Below, piece by piece: positions 27,513-33,012 of a stretch of 55,122 nt of DNA; position 1 is the first letter of the stretch, and every line of letters begins with the position of its first letter. The DNA is from an uncultured Synergistales bacterium. GTDB taxonomy: Bacteria; Synergistota; Synergistia; Synergistales; Aminobacteriaceae. The stretch covers positions 1-55,122 of the forward strand of contig CAJOEM010000013.1 of assembly GCA_905233725.1 (NCBI GenBank), written 5' to 3'. A program made the translations under genes and the position numbers. The notes beneath the pieces are model-generated. The model saw only the letters and a list, made by a program, of their open reading frames with translations. It was not told where the DNA came from and ran no database searches.

Positions 27513-27908
27513 ATGTTTGTGAGATTTGTGAAATTTCTGATTCGCTGGATTGAACGTTTAGTATTATTAGCTGCGTTGATATTGCTGGGAGCTTGGCTGT
27601 TCTACATTGGGCGCGAGCACCAGATTTTCTTGGACAACCGCACTAACGAGGACTTCCGCGCATTATCTCAGGTGAACGTCAGCATCAATGGCGGCGAAGT
27701 TTCGGAATTGACATCGAGAGAGCGTGACGTGAAAAAAATCGTTGGTCCGAAATTCACGATTAAAGCAGAAATTTTTGATGAACGCGGCGAGATTGCGAAA
27801 ACTGTTGAACGTGAGATCAAATTATGTCCGTTGAGCAAAGACATCATGATAAATCTGCCAACGTTAGCAGCTGAGAGTGAGAATTTTATTCTGGCAGCTC
27901 CGAGATAA
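27513..27908 (+). CDS. small membrane protein of the ABC operon (DUF6672-like)
   Basis: A 131-residue protein with one N-terminal transmembrane helix (LVLLAALILLGAWLFYIG) and a soluble remainder rich in beta-strand-like segments. It follows the second permease by 3 bases. I recognise it as the small protein that accompanies DUF3798-type transporters, often listed as DUF6672. Its role is unknown; by position it may be an accessory of the permease complex. Confidence 0.7.
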   Translation: MFVRFVKFLIRWIERLVLLAALILLGAWLFYIGREHQIFLDNRTNEDFRALSQVNVSINGGEVSELTSRERDVKKIVGPKFTIKAEIFDERGEIAKTVEREIKLCPLSKDIMINLPTLAAESENFILAAPR

Positions 27909-27941
27909 ATATAATAGAGAAATAGCTGGCGAAAATTACGG

Positions 27942-27975
27942 CGGGTTCTGGAGAAATTCAGGACTCGTTGTTTTT
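27942..27975 (+). terminator. terminator of the ABC transporter operon
   Basis: CGGGTTCTG (27942-27950), an 8-base loop, CAGGACTCG (27959-27967; nine pairs including two G-U) and then TTGTTTTT. It overlaps the stop codon of the interrupted hxlR gene on the other strand. Confidence 0.7.
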
Positions 27976-28038
27976 ATGCAGCTCCCGATATTTCAAGCCC
28001 CAATCCTGCATCGAGAATAATATCTCACGCATACTCTC
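27958..28038 (-). pseudogene. HxlR-family regulator, C-terminal fragment
   Basis: Read on the minus strand, 28038-27958 gives 26 codons and a stop: ESMREILFSMQDWGLKYREL, ending HKNNES. LxxMxxWG near the end is the typical HxlR C-terminus. It has no start and abuts the right end of the TnpB element. Joined to the N-terminal fragment at 29292-29552 it restores a continuous frame of 113 residues, the usual HxlR size. Confidence 0.85.
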
Positions 28039-28048
28039 TTGACATACT

Positions 28049-28069
28049 CCCCACGCCTAAAGGCGGGGG
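28049..28069 (-). ncRNA. right-end hairpin, predicted 3' part of the TnpB guide (omega) RNA
   Basis: A nine-pair hairpin with a TAAA loop (TTTA in tnpB sense) at the right end of the element, about ten bases after the tnpB stop. In characterised TnpB systems this region is the end of the reRNA/omegaRNA scaffold, and the bases just outside the element act as guide. Only the hairpin is seen here; the RNA itself is inferred. Confidence 0.5.
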
Positions 28070-28078
28070 ATTCTAGTA

Positions 28079-29212
28079 TCAACAACAACTGCCTGCCGAA
28101 ACAGGTCTTACGTCGTCTCCTCTAAAGGTTGATGCCCCAACCCTTAAAATATTTTTTGCCGCGTTTATATCCCTATCGTGTTCTGCAGCACATTCAGGAC
28201 ATTTCCATGAACGAACACGCAAGTCTTTGACTTCTGGATTTTTATAGCCGCATTGGCTGCAAATTTGACTTGAGGGATAATATTTCGGAATTTCAATCAC
28301 TACAACGTTATGTTTAAACGCTTCGTACTTCAAAATTTGCACAAAACTATAAAATCCTAAATCTGAAATTTTTCGTCCCCAAAGTCTTTGCATTCCCTTG
28401 AGATTTAGTGTCTCAAGGCAAATTACTCCATATTCACGGCATAAATTCAATGAGGTCTTGTAATGAAAATCTCGTCTCTGATTATAAATTTTCTTATAAG
28501 CACGCGCTAATTCGATTCTTGCACGTTCGTGATGAGAGTTTGATTTCTTACGCGACAATCTTTTACTGAGTTTCTTAATTTTACTGGAACTTTTTCTGAA
28601 AAATAAAGGGCTTTCTATGTGATCCCCCTCGCTTGATGTTAAAAATGTTTTAAGCCCGAAATCTAAGCCGACGATTTTACCCGATCTGGCTTCGATTATT
28701 TTCGAACTTTCATCACTCACAACATAAACGTATAAATCACCTAGAGAATCTCGTTTTATTGTTAATAATTTTATGCTTCCATTTACTTCACGCGACTTAA
28801 AAAACTTATAATAGTCCCCCGCAATCTTTATTTGATTTCCAATGATTATATTTTTTCCGACCATGTTATAGCTAAAGGATTTATATTTCTTCACTTTTTG
28901 AAAACGCGGCGGTGCTGTTTTTACTTTTCTCTTGAGATTTTCAAAAAATAATTTATAAGCCCTTGAAACTCTTTCAGTTATATCCTGAATTGCGTGAGAT
29001 GGAATCTGGTTCCAGTATGAAAATTTTTCACGATGTTTTAATTTATTTAAGTGTTTTTGAAGCGCAAATTTGTTTAAGGATTTATGAAATAAGCGATAAT
29101 AACGTTTATGCAAAGCCACGCAATGATTATAGATAATTCCTGCGATGTTAATCTTATTTTTCAAATTTTGGTTTTTTTTTGAAGCATATAATTTGAAACA
29201 ATATGTTCTCAC
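28079..29212 (-). CDS. tnpB: TnpB-family RNA-guided endonuclease (IS605 OrfB)
   Basis: A 377-residue TnpB with an N-terminal helical/HTH region and a RuvC-like nuclease. All three acidic catalytic positions are visible: Asp in IVGLDFGLKTFLTS, Glu in VICLETLNLKGM and Asp in EHDRDINAAKNIL. The zinc ribbon CSQCGYKNPEV...WKCPEC sits between the last two. Length and motifs suggest an intact enzyme. An AGGAGG-type site precedes the ATG at 29212. In related elements TnpB uses a guide RNA from the element's right end to cut the empty donor site and promote retention. Confidence 0.93.
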   Translation of the reverse strand: MRTYCFKLYASKKNQNLKNKINIAGIIYNHCVALHKRYYRLFHKSLNKFALQKHLNKLKHREKFSYWNQIPSHAIQDITERVSRAYKLFFENLKRKVKTAPPRFQKVKKYKSFSYNMVGKNIIIGNQIKIAGDYYKFFKSREVNGSIKLLTIKRDSLGDLYVYVVSDESSKIIEARSGKIVGLDFGLKTFLTSSEGDHIESPLFFRKSSSKIKKLSKRLSRKKSNSHHERARIELARAYKKIYNQRRDFHYKTSLNLCREYGVICLETLNLKGMQRLWGRKISDLGFYSFVQILKYEAFKHNVVVIEIPKYYPSSQICSQCGYKNPEVKDLRVRSWKCPECAAEHDRDINAAKNILRVGASTFRGDDVRPVSAGSCC

Positions 29213-29291
29213 TTTTCATAACCTCCTTTCGCAAATTTTTATATATTATAGCAAAAGCGGCTTATACCCATAGCTAAAGCAAGTGGCTTGC

Positions 29292-29552
29292 GCCGAAATT
29301 TTCGGTCAACGAATACTCAACGCCAAGCGGAATCGTTCTGAGTGTCGTGCGCTTAACAAGTCCATCGCTCTCCATTGAGCGCAAACTCGCTGTCAAAACT
29401 TTGTGACTTATCCCGTCGAGATCGCGTTTCAGTTCCTGGAATCTGCATGGCTTATTCAGCAGGTCACGCAGAATTAGCAATTTCCATTTGCTGCCGATCA
29501 AATTCACAGTCGTAGCAACCGGACAATCCGGCAAATCTTTTTTACTGAGCAA
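29292..29552 (-). pseudogene. HxlR-family transcriptional regulator, N-terminal fragment
   Basis: 87 residues of a winged-helix HxlR regulator. The redox-sensor-type Cys10 lies in DLPDCPV, followed by SKWKLLILRDLLNKPCRFQEL, the recognition helix ISHKVLTASLRSMESDGLV and the wing VEYSLTE. The frame then runs into the left end of the TnpB element and stops after a few foreign residues. The missing 26 residues are at 27958-28038. The intact gene would have faced away from the peptide/radical SAM genes and is their most likely local regulator. Confidence 0.88.
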
Positions 29553-29672
29553 TTTTCACATCTCCTTCACGAATATTATACGGGTAACAAAAAAGTGCGT
29601 TATTGTGTAATTGCGAATTTCTGGATTATGATTTCGCCGTTAATATTATTTCTACAGGAGGAAATGTTCGTA

Positions 29673-29807
29673 ATGGCAATTTCAGATTTAGCCGATTGGG
29701 GCAGCAAGTCATCGTCTTGTGGCGGCAGCAAACCGTCATCTTGTGGCAGTAAAGCATCGTCTTGCGGCGGAGAAAAGAAACCGTCATCTTGCGGTGCATC
29801 AAAGTAA
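29673..29807 (+). CDS. Ser/Cys/Gly-repeat peptide, putative RiPP precursor
   Basis: A 44-residue peptide beginning MAISDLADWG, which reads as a short leader. It is followed by four SSCG motifs with Cys at 16, 24, 31 and 40, separated by Lys/Ser/Gly/Pro linkers. AGGAGG at 29656-29661 supports the ATG at 29673; an ATG nine bases earlier is too close to it. A radical SAM/SPASM gene follows directly. The arrangement matches the ACGX-type peptide systems known from family models, in which a Cys-repeat peptide sits beside such an enzyme, but here the repeat is SSCG. A likely promoter is TTGTGT (29603-29608), 18 bases, TATGAT (29627-29632). Product structure and activity are unknown. Confidence 0.75.
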   Translation: MAISDLADWGSKSSSCGGSKPSSCGSKASSCGGEKKPSSCGASK

Positions 29808-29827
29808 TAACTAATAATTTTTGAAAC

Positions 29828-29856
29828 GCCCTGTCTCGTTACGGGGCAATTTTTTT
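29828..29856 (+). terminator. attenuator between precursor peptide and radical SAM gene
   Basis: GCCCTGT (29828-29834), a six-base loop, ACGGGGC (29841-29847) and then AA and seven T. It ends 3 bases before the ATG of the radical SAM gene. Partial read-through would give far more precursor mRNA than enzyme mRNA. Confidence 0.75.
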
Positions 29857-29859
29857 ATC

Positions 29860-30900
29860 ATGCGATATTTCTCGTTTCAGATTCATATCACAGACAACTG
29901 CGACCAACGCTGCAAACATTGCTACATATTCTCTGGCAGCAAAACTCACAAATTGATCAGCATGAGTCCAGAAAATTTTCAGAAAGTCCTGTCAAATTGC
30001 GTTGCGTTCGGTGAAAGATTCCAGCGTCAACCATATTTCTACATTACAGGCGGCGATCCGATTTTGCACCCGAATTTCTGGGAATTTCTCGCGTTATTGA
30101 AAGAACATAATATTCAGTTCTCGATTTTTGGCAACCCGTTTCACATCAACGAGGAAATTTGCACTCGCCTGAAAAATCTTGGCTGCGAAAATTACCAGTT
30201 ATCAATCGACGGCACAAGACAAACTCACGACTGGTTCAGAAGAGCCGGTTCATTCGACTGCACACTCTCGAAAATACGCTGCATAAAAAATTCCGGATTA
30301 TGTTCAGTTATTATGACGACGGTTTCAAGAGCAAATATTCACGAAGTCCCGGAAATTATCGACACAGTTGTTGAATACGGGGTTGACGTTTACTCATTCG
30401 CGAGATATTGTCCGACAGGAAGCGAAACCAGCAACGGAATCTCGCCTTCAGAATATCGCGACTTTCTCAGAATTTGCGACGAAAAATTCAGGTTTTACGA
30501 ATCTCAGAATTGCGCGACGTATTTTGACAGAAAAGATCATCTCTGGACACTCTACGATTATGAGAACGGAAATTTCACAATCCCGAATGATTCAAAACAT
30601 GGCGTGATATATTCGGGCTGTAATTGCGGAAATGCACACCTGACGATTTTGCCGAATTGCGATGTCTACGCTTGTCGCAGAGTTCTGAACAGCAAAGTCG
30701 GAAACGCTCTCGAGAATAATCTGTCGGATTTGTGGCTGAATGAGCTTGAGAAATTTCGTGATTATGATAAATTTGCGAAGTGTTCCAGATGTGAATTGCT
30801 GGGATTTTGCAGAGGTTGTCCAGCAGTTGCGTCTGGAAGTTGTGGCGGAGATTTTTACGCGCCAGATCCTCAATGTTGGAAAATGTTAAAGGAGATTTGA
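29860..30900 (+). CDS. radical SAM/SPASM peptide-modifying enzyme
   Basis: A 346-residue enzyme. The radical SAM cluster motif is NCDQRCKHCYIFSG near residues 14-24 (CxxxCxxC), followed by ITGGDPILHP and QLSIDG. The C-terminal SPASM region carries auxiliary-cluster Cys residues: SGCNCGNAHLTILPNCDVYACRR, then CSRCELLGFCRGCPAVASGSCGG and DPQCW. SPASM enzymes often install thioether or C-C crosslinks in ribosomal peptides. The adjacent Cys-rich peptide is the obvious substrate, by context. The ATG at 29860 is chosen over a TTG at 29821 that lies before the attenuator hairpin. Its translation signal is weak, which also fits low expression relative to the peptide. Confidence 0.9.
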   Translation: MRYFSFQIHITDNCDQRCKHCYIFSGSKTHKLISMSPENFQKVLSNCVAFGERFQRQPYFYITGGDPILHPNFWEFLALLKEHNIQFSIFGNPFHINEEICTRLKNLGCENYQLSIDGTRQTHDWFRRAGSFDCTLSKIRCIKNSGLCSVIMTTVSRANIHEVPEIIDTVVEYGVDVYSFARYCPTGSETSNGISPSEYRDFLRICDEKFRFYESQNCATYFDRKDHLWTLYDYENGNFTIPNDSKHGVIYSGCNCGNAHLTILPNCDVYACRRVLNSKVGNALENNLSDLWLNELEKFRDYDKFAKCSRCELLGFCRGCPAVASGSCGGDFYAPDPQCWKMLKEI

Positions 30901-30908
30901 TTTCAATC

Positions 30909-31487
30909 ATGGATTTACTCGAATTAATACGAACCAGGCACTCAATCAGGAAATATCAGACTAAGCAAATATCACGCGACGATCTTGAGAAAATCATCGA
31001 GGCAGGCTTACGTGCTCCGAATGCTGGAGGTCGTCAGGGCAGCCTAATCGTTGGCATTCACAACGCGCAATTAGCTGAGCAAATCGGCAAACTGAACATC
31101 GCAAAATTTGATCGCAGCGCATTGTTAGGAAATTACGTCTCACACGAACAGCCAAGCATAATCGACGATCCCAAAATCAAGAGCGGATTTTACGGCGCAC
31201 CGAGCGTATGTGTAATTTTCGGAGCGAAAGATTTCTTGTACAGTGTTGCGGACGCGTTCTGCTGTGCTGAGAATATGATCTTGATGGCTCACTCAATCGG
31301 CATCTCGTCGTGCATAATCGCTCGTGGTGAAGAAACGTTTGATAATCCAGATGGACGCGAATTTCTGAAGAATTGGCAAGTTCCGGAAAATTACGTTGCT
31401 CAATGTTTCGTGTTGCTTGGATATATCGACGGCGCAGAACCCTCGCCAAAAGCGTTGCACGAAAACCGCAGCAAAATCATAGAATGA
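30909..31487 (+). CDS. nitroreductase-family FMN protein
   Basis: A 192-residue nitroreductase-like flavoprotein. The N-terminus DLLELIRTRHSIRKYQ and the ISRDDLEKIIEAGLRAPNAGG segment form the FMN-binding start. GISSCIIARGEE and CFVLLGYIDG are typical C-terminal parts. It begins 8 bases after the radical SAM stop, with AAAGGAGA upstream. It could reduce flavin or quinone substrates generally, or take part in maturing the neighbouring peptide, as some nitroreductase-fold enzymes do in RiPP clusters. That role is inferred from position only. Confidence 0.85.
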   Translation: MDLLELIRTRHSIRKYQTKQISRDDLEKIIEAGLRAPNAGGRQGSLIVGIHNAQLAEQIGKLNIAKFDRSALLGNYVSHEQPSIIDDPKIKSGFYGAPSVCVIFGAKDFLYSVADAFCCAENMILMAHSIGISSCIIARGEETFDNPDGREFLKNWQVPENYVAQCFVLLGYIDGAEPSPKALHENRSKIIE

Positions 31488-31550
31488 TTATATATTATCT
31501 CGAGTTTGCTATAATGTGTGAAAATTTATTTTTGGAAAGGCAGTTTTCAC

Positions 31551-31979
31551 ATGAAACGTATAATTTCGGCTTTAGTAGTTTTGTGCGTGTTTGCGATTCC
31601 GGCGTTCGCTCTGAGTGACGCGGAGTATTTGCGTATGAAGAAAAATCGTGACTTCGCTGAAGCAGACAAGGAATTAACCAGGGTTTACAACGAGGCGAAA
31701 GACAAGATGAGTTACTCGGCTTTCACGGAGTTGCGAAAATCTCAGCGTGAATGGGTCAAGACTGGGCGTGATCGTCAGGCCAGAGAATTGATTCGCGATG
31801 GGGAAACCCGGCTCAATGCTTACACAGAAGTTACTCTTCAGCGAGTTACGTTTATAAAAAACGCAATCGGTGATAATTCGTTGGATAATTCAGAGGACAA
31901 TTCGTCGGATGATTCATCAGAGGATAATTATTCAGAAGATAATTCGTCGGACACCGGCAAATTTTACGAGGAAGACTGA
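31551..31979 (+). CDS. small secreted LprI-like protein with acidic Ser/Asp/Asn tail
   Basis: A 142-residue exported protein with the signal peptide MKRIISALVVLCVFAIPAFA. The central part, YLRMKKNRDFAEADKELTRVYNEA followed by LRKSQREWVKTGRDR, resembles the LprI/DUF1311 domain (ADxxLNxxY ... QRxWxxxRD), though the usual Cys pairs are absent. The last 35 residues are low-complexity Asp, Ser, Asn and Glu. The ATG at 31551 is supported by GGAAAGG. TATAAT at 31510-31515 may be its -10. Lysozyme-inhibitor function is known for some relatives but is not shown here. Confidence 0.72.
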   Translation: MKRIISALVVLCVFAIPAFALSDAEYLRMKKNRDFAEADKELTRVYNEAKDKMSYSAFTELRKSQREWVKTGRDRQARELIRDGETRLNAYTEVTLQRVTFIKNAIGDNSLDNSEDNSSDDSSEDNYSEDNSSDTGKFYEED

Positions 31980-32025
31980 AATTTCAGGAAAAATTCATTG
32001 GAATTCATTGGGAGGATAATTTGAC

Positions 32026-33012
32026 ATGAGAAATATTTTCAGAAAAGCTTTATTGCTCGGATTAGTTACAATTTTCGCGTTTAACAGCACACTCGCATTT
32101 GCTGCAACAACACTCAAACTCGGCACAACTGTTAATGAACAGGATTCGTTTCAGGTTGCTGCGGAGAAATTCAAGGCCCTAATCGAAGAACGCACGAACG
32201 GGAATTACAAGATCGAGATTTATCCCAACGGCAGTCTCGGTGGCGAAAGTGACATGCTTGACTCGATGTCAATGGATATGCTCGATATGGGAATCATTAC
32301 GTCTGGACCGTTCGTGAATTTTGCGGCGATGATGGGCGTGTTGGATATGCCGTTCTTGTTCGCGAATAATTCCGAAGCTTATAAAATTCTCGATGGCGCA
32401 ATCGGGCAGGAATTACTGGATACGCTTGAGGCTGCAAATTTGAAGGGACTTGCTTATGCTGAACGAGGCTTCAGGAACGTTACGAACTCAATCAGACCAG
32501 TGAAAAATGCGGAAGATATTAAAGGCTTGAAGCTGCGTGTAATGGAAAATGAAGTTTACACGGCTACGTTCAGAGCGCTGGGAGTGAATGCTACACCGAT
32601 GCAATGGGCGGACGCTTTGACGGCAATGCAGCAGAACACGATTGAGGGCGAAGAGAATCCGATTAACGTAATTTACTCGTACGGGCTTTGGGATTACAAC
32701 CAGAAATTCGTCACGCTTGACCGACACAGTTATTCTACGGCGATAATCACAATGAGTCTGGAAGCTTTCAAGAGACTCGATCCTGACACTCAGAAAATTT
32801 TCAAGCAATCGGCTCAGGAAGCTGCGGAATATGAGCGTCAGTGGGTAGCTGATCAGGAAGCCGGACAACTCGCTGCGATAAAATCTCACGGTGTTGAAGT
32901 TGTAGAAAATCCGGACGTGGATTCGTTCAGGAATGCTGTTCAGACGGTCTACTCGGCATATCCTCAGTACGCTGATTATATCTCGAAGATTCAGTCTGAG
33001 TTAGCGAAATAA
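32026..33012 (+). CDS. dctP: TRAP transporter substrate-binding protein, DctP family
   Basis: A 328-residue periplasmic binding protein with a signal peptide ending LAFAA. Family features are LKLGTTVNEQDSFQVAAEKFK, EIYPNGSLGGESDMLDSM and the carboxylate-binding Arg region KGLKLRVMENEVYTATFRALG with TPMQWADALTAMQQ. It is the first gene of a complete dctPQM unit that imports an organic acid using an ion gradient. The ligand cannot be read from sequence. Confidence 0.94.
   Translation: MRNIFRKALLLGLVTIFAFNSTLAFAATTLKLGTTVNEQDSFQVAAEKFKALIEERTNGNYKIEIYPNGSLGGESDMLDSMSMDMLDMGIITSGPFVNFAAMMGVLDMPFLFANNSEAYKILDGAIGQELLDTLEAANLKGLAYAERGFRNVTNSIRPVKNAEDIKGLKLRVMENEVYTATFRALGVNATPMQWADALTAMQQNTIEGEENPINVIYSYGLWDYNQKFVTLDRHSYSTAIITMSLEAFKRLDPDTQKIFKQSAQEAAEYERQWVADQEAGQLAAIKSHGVEVVENPDVDSFRNAVQTVYSAYPQYADYISKIQSELAK

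Follow-up and report, generated by a model that had tools for sequence, protein, structure and literature searches.

The question raised by this locus is whether a short peptide gene with four SSCG units, standing directly before a radical SAM/SPASM enzyme and a nitroreductase-fold flavoprotein, belongs to a known kind of RiPP system or to a kind of its own, and what the enzyme does to the peptide. The locus lies in a 55,122-nucleotide stretch of DNA from an uncultured Synergistales bacterium, which is referred to here as the window (features in Table 1). A first-pass annotation had described a possible RiPP locus with a divergent HxlR-type regulator and had suggested that the SSCG repeat and the nitroreductase partner may mark a distinct branch. 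Our analysis supports the reading as a RiPP-type locus, in which a SPASM maturase is paired with a Cys-repeat precursor, and the locus is almost certainly an ACGX-type RiPP cassette. The ACGX system is a bioinformatically named kind, to which this locus adds a member with a new anatomy; no mention of the system by name or accession was found in the open-access literature searched.

Table 1. Features of the cassette and of the adjoining regulator and insertion, in window coordinates
Feature	Coordinates	Strand	Basis or remark
Displaced HxlR C-terminal remnant, SMREILFSMQDWGLKYRELHKNNES*, approximate coordinates	27970..28046	-	Translation compared by eye
IS200/IS605-type element, tnpB only (ORF 28079-29212), ends approximate	28038..29309	-	PF07282 and PF01385; other copies
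HxlR/DUF24 repressor gene, N-terminal part (~84 codons), N-terminal Cys (LPDCPVATT)	29297..29552	-	PF01638, 76.7 bits; tblastn
Conserved promoter motif GTAACAAAAAAGTGCGTTATT, candidate HxlR operator	29584..29604		Single site per genome
Precursor peptide gene, 44 aa, four SSCG units, leader MAISDLADW	29673..29807	+	Comparison with relatives
Terminator-like hairpin GCCCTGT-CTCGTT-ACGGGGC, then T-run	29828..29847	+	-11.8 kcal/mol, z -2.8
Radical SAM/SPASM maturase, 346 aa, TIGR04340	29860..30900	+	548 bits, cut-off 400; Cys motifs conserved
Nitroreductase-fold flavoprotein, 192 aa	30909..31487	+	PF00881, 85.2 bits; position kept in relatives

Profile searches recovered the radical SAM (PF04055) and SPASM (PF13186) domains in the enzyme and PF00881 in the nitroreductase, in agreement with the genes read downstream of the peptide from the sequence alone. 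Comparison of the enzyme with the ACGX-system family model, which had been proposed as a check, gave 548.2 bits against NCBIfam TIGR04340 (rSAM_ACGX, cut-off 400) and identifies it as an equivalog; its CxxxCxxC motif and SPASM cysteines are conserved in the comparison with relatives. The enzyme most likely starts, judging from its relatives, at ATG 29860 rather than at TTG 29821, and with the SAM domain beginning at residue 9 there is no room for an N-terminal RRE domain. A grouping with the sulfatase maturases, which would have spoken for a non-peptide substrate, was not found: sulfatase_rSAM (TIGR03942) is absent from the best 25 families of the window enzyme. Matches to TIGR04340 above the cut-off were found in 18 of the 61 genomes searched around the window, all 18 within the window's genus (37 genomes), and a sample of 398 genomes from the phylum to which a Selenomonadaceae locus belongs contained 9 with such a match.

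The peptide (MAISDLADWGSKSSSCGGSKPSSCGSKASSCGGEKKPSSCGASK, 29673-29804) carries, as first described, its four SSCG units with Cys at positions 16, 24, 31 and 40, hence at spacings of 8, 7 and 9 residues, and an AGGAGG ribosome site lies at about 29657, 5' of the gene. Comparison with relatives places its start at ATG 29673. Pairwise comparisons of the peptide gene gave pN/pS values of 0.00 to 0.45, and in two pairs the encoded peptides are the same although the genes differ at 12 and 16 nucleotides. By these sequence comparisons the peptide is a real gene under strong purifying selection; a chance ORF is ruled out by the conservation and the pN/pS values.

The short ORF was also found conserved beside homologous enzymes, as the RiPP reading had predicted. 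Wherever upstream DNA was available within the genus (17/17 loci), the peptide stands directly before the orthologous enzyme. A Cys-Gly repeat peptide also precedes the enzyme in all ten loci outside the genus, which come from a Clostridia MAG, a Selenomonadaceae MAG and further members of the latter's phylum, so that the two are paired in 27/27 cassette loci with upstream DNA, from at least two phyla. The conserved peptides have 36-54 residues, a short leader MALxxLxxW and Cys-Gly repeats; those of the window's genus have the leader MALKDLA-W or one close to it and 3-6 Cys. Within the genus the HxlR gene lies upstream in 16 of 17 loci and the nitroreductase gene downstream in 16/16 loci with downstream DNA, and outside it, within the DNA covered, the nitroreductase is present in 8 of the 10 loci and HxlR in 6. 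As judged from this gene order, peptide, TIGR04340 enzyme, nitroreductase and divergent HxlR are inherited together.

The nitroreductase is thus rejected as the mark of a distinct branch, since the classical ACGX loci (the same 8/10) have it too, and the suggestion of such a branch is further contradicted by the enzyme score; only the repeat sequence sets the window locus apart. Against TIGR04341, the ACGX-repeat peptide model, the peptide scores 12.5 bits, below the cut-off of 28 and with an E-value (0.17) that is insignificant taken alone, in an alignment that runs end to end (residues 1-42 on model positions 1-58 of 65). A Clostridia peptide with a similar leader scores 100 bits and an intermediate peptide of the same genus 23 bits. 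The cut-off shuts out clear relatives, because the Selenomonadaceae peptide, with plain ACGS repeats, also falls under it at 21.8 bits. On sequence grounds the SSCG peptide is a diverged ACGX member that is invisible to the standard model and to routine annotation. Its repeat reads S-[S/A]-C-G-G-x-K where the classical peptides have A-C-G-[A/S]-x-D; the leader type and the repeated Cys-Gly units after a short leader are common to both. Membership is assigned, despite the sub-cut-off peptide, because the enzyme is an equivalog and the cassette is shared, with the same divergent HxlR, the same nitroreductase and a hairpin 3' of the peptide gene.

Across 25 distinct peptides, Gly occupies the +1 position for 117 of 118 Cys, while position +4 differs between the two groups. 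In the window's genus it is Lys for 54/57 Cys and Asp for 0/57, whereas outside the genus it is Asp for 35 and Cys for 23, together 58 of 61. Cys-Gly is, in these alignments, the invariant core, and the Cx3D motif of the Bacillota peptides (35/61 Cys in the non-genus peptides) is missing in the window's genus. The window enzyme is 60-65% identical to the enzymes of nine of the ten non-genus loci and 53% identical to the tenth. Enzymes of about 60% identity therefore meet very different Cys surroundings and share only Cys-Gly, which argues against an acceptor fixed as Asp, the arrangement of PapA-type ranthipeptides. The divergent +4 position beside a constant Cys-Gly speaks for chemistry at the Cys-Gly unit.

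Our preferred reading is that the enzyme would recognise the leader and convert Cys to a thiooxazole at each Cys-Gly, a four-electron oxidation like that catalysed by SbtM, with the nitroreductase (nearest solved structure by sequence, 3ek3) acting as a flavin redox partner that may complete an oxidation or handle electrons. It is likely that the enzyme acts on the Cys of Cys-Gly; that the product is specifically a thiooxazole is a suggestion by analogy, somewhat less than evenly likely. A thiooxazole is preferred because SbtM (TIGR04082) is the second-best family of the enzyme. The SbtM family matches all 26 enzyme members (best 5e-51), has the second-best best E-value over them and is also second-best for two paralogues from Nif11 loci, which are described below. 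According to a review (PMC11002830), SbtM takes four H from Cys or Sec to give a thio(seleno)oxazole, the Cys product being a thiooxazole by NMR. The score of the window enzyme is 137-141 bits against a cut-off of 350, with the heme-b synthase AhbD close behind (122.9 bits against 137.5 for SbtM, from the ATG start), so that the similarity is a weak guide to chemistry. SbtM also has about 190 N-terminal residues without a counterpart in the window enzyme, and there is no sign of selenocysteine in the window system, unlike in the SbtM/SbtA RiPPs. Searching for SbtM homologues at an E-value of 1e-60 gave 0/188 genomes in the window's phylum and 0/299 in Bacillota, in a search whose control also remained without any match.

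The main rival, which we consider rather unlikely, is that thioether crosslinks of ranthipeptide or sactipeptide type are formed between the Cys sulfur and a carbon atom in a nearby residue: the Asp of Cx3D in the Bacillota peptides, as in PapA/freyrasin, and another residue in the window peptide. The nearest solved structures to the enzyme by sequence are those of SkfB (6efn) and CteB (5wgg), both of them thioether formers, the PapB family (NF047865) matches all 26 members (best 1.3e-20), and the frequent Cx3D of the non-genus peptides would supply an acceptor. Ranthipeptides (CteB, PapB) and the sactipeptide SkfB likewise pair a SPASM maturase with a Cys peptide, but the window system differs from them in having neither a conserved acceptor position nor an N-terminal extension of RRE size. 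The exchange of Asp for Lys at +4 between the peptides of such similar enzymes counts against crosslinking, as does the invariant residue, which is the +1 Gly and not an acceptor, and the window enzyme scores only 57 bits against PapB (cut-off 340) compared with 137 for SbtM.

Some other change of Cys-Gly or of the neighbouring Ser or Lys (an oxazolone-thioamide, Cys decarboxylation or epimerisation), with the nitroreductase catalysing a second oxidation step, appears unlikely. It would account for a nitroreductase that is nearly always present, and in other RiPP pathways FMN enzymes of the nitroreductase fold serve as azoline dehydrogenases; the window protein, however, matched general nitroreductase families and no azoline-dehydrogenase family in the profile search, and none of these chemistries is indicated by a particular feature of the sequence. 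Highly improbable, in our judgement, is an unmodified Cys peptide serving as a thiol or metal buffer, with the radical SAM enzyme acting on another substrate such as a tetrapyrrole. AhbD and NirJ families are among the next-best matches of the enzyme, and the HxlR and nitroreductase pairing resembles thiol-stress operons (PMC6943732), but this explanation sits poorly with the constant pairing of peptide and enzyme across phyla and with a subfamily of the enzyme that occurs beside a leader-cleaving exporter in a Nif11 RiPP locus and so links the family to peptides.

The latter loci belong to two genomes of the same genus (G011 and G034), where TIGR04340-like enzymes accompany a precursor that has a Nif11 leader and a GG cleavage site; in G011 the precursor is flanked by two such enzymes and an NHLP-type peptidase exporter comes after. 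That these RiPP loci use the same enzyme family supports peptide modification by TIGR04340-like enzymes. The loci represent a different kind of RiPP locus (L049:7630-12469, L050:2976-5356 and L053:843-3109). Their precursors carry NVAGG and have a core such as DCSCPTCGIEPWDW, and alongside are radical SAM enzymes of the TIGR04340-like type, two of them in L049, and a 296-aa protein without a Pfam or NCBIfam match; the exporter of L049 is an NHLP-type peptidase ABC exporter.

Turning to the control of the cassette, the regulator noted in the first-pass annotation does match PF01638 and is divergent, but it is not intact. The 92-aa HxlR ORF is the N-terminal part, since tblastn homology to an intact relative of 107 residues runs out at residue 84. 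Past a TnpB element, at a distance of about 1.25 kb, the C-terminal part is found as a remnant that matches SLKPVLLEMEKWGNFYK of intact HxlR relatives. The element, whose ends were recognised from other copies in the same genome, sits 3' of TTGAC inside the HxlR gene. The gene is, by this comparison, split by the insertion, and expression of the cassette in the window's genome is therefore probably constitutive, or derepressed; the N-terminal fragment might keep some activity. Sequences with the same element ends occur on contigs C3, C8 and C20, one of about 180 bp with both ends.

An N-terminal CP[VA] motif, with the Cys in an (E/D)CP context, is present in 16/16 HxlR relatives. The sensing Cys is likewise N-terminal in HypR, YodB and CatR, and DUF24 regulators of this type respond to thiol oxidants in B. 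subtilis, where flavin reductases are under their control (PMC6943732). Those operons also place a DUF24 repressor with an N-terminal Cys beside a flavin reductase, and differ in that the regulated unit here is a peptide-modifying cassette. HxlR would, via this Cys, repress the cassette until thiol-redox or electrophile stress. A motif, GTWACAWWWWDGTGCSTYMTT, lies upstream of the peptide gene, and exactly one site with 0-1 mismatches per genome was found in 15/15 genomes, always at the cassette; extra sites have 2 mismatches and occur at about the frequency in the reversed control. A larger HxlR regulon is rejected, the motif search having found no second good site in the 15 genomes. A related motif, AAAAAGTGCGTACTT, precedes most Bacillota peptides. 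A possible weak promoter (TTGTGT, 18 bases, TATGAT) adjoins the motif, as would suit repression, and the motif is the probable HxlR operator. The hairpin between the peptide and enzyme genes recurs in 16/16 aligned same-genus loci and most others. It shows little covariation, with a double change at a single pair, so that the claim rests on position and stem conservation, and Rfam gave no match in 27700-32100. The hairpin may act as a leaky terminator, by which mRNA for the peptide would stay more abundant than mRNA for the enzyme.

The product is proposed to stay in the cell and to bind soft metals such as Cu(I) or to buffer the thiol redox state. An intracellular location is probable because the conserved cassette has no exporter or protease gene; the metal- or redox-buffering role itself is, like the thiooxazole, somewhat less than evenly likely. 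No metal genes were recognised beside the cassette. In bulbicupramide the thiooxazole is at a Cys before Gly, in Lys-Cys-Gly (PMC12538549), the oxazolin precursors have EGKCG motifs (PMC12452194), and such peptides with thiooxazoles bind copper (PMC12538549; PMC12452194). Both have Cys-Gly units in common with the window peptide, and bulbicupramide, as here, has no protease nearby. Thiooxazoles with metal binding, as in the bufferins, oxazolins and bulbicupramide, are proposed likewise for the window peptide; those systems use an iron MNIO enzyme in place of a radical SAM enzyme, and bufferin and oxazolin precursors have signal peptides (PMC12452194), which is a further difference from the window system. 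The explanation as a whole, an ACGX RiPP cassette with thiooxazoles at Cys-Gly, thiol-redox control and an intracellular metal or redox peptide, is tentative, its prospects falling just short of even. More doubtful is the generalisation that ACGX cassettes are the anaerobic radical-SAM counterpart of the iron-enzyme bufferins, with an RRE-less enzyme, metal-binding thiooxazoles at every Cys-Gly, a nitroreductase partner and thiol-redox control.

The conserved determinant, Cys-Gly and not Cx3D, allows a direct test between thiooxazole and thioether chemistry. The ACGX system is extended to peptides missed by the current model, and the locus offers a natural repressor disruption together with a defined candidate operator.

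Several further genes were noted. In the window the nitroreductase is followed (31518-31979) by an LprI-like (PF07007) protein whose acidic tail is rich in Ser, Asp and Asn; its gene is not kept with the cassette in relatives. Seven loci of the same genus (L036, L037, L040, L041, L044, L046 and L047) have a MerR-family regulator that stands close to the nitroreductase and is convergent with it; none was found in the window. On the HxlR side, L036, L037, L040, L041, L044, L045 and L046 have, near the cassette, an aldo/keto reductase whose C-terminus is ferredoxin-like. The ACGX enzyme of G036 (L052:6990-8223) falls into two frames (242 and 174 aa), owing to a frameshift or an error of assembly.
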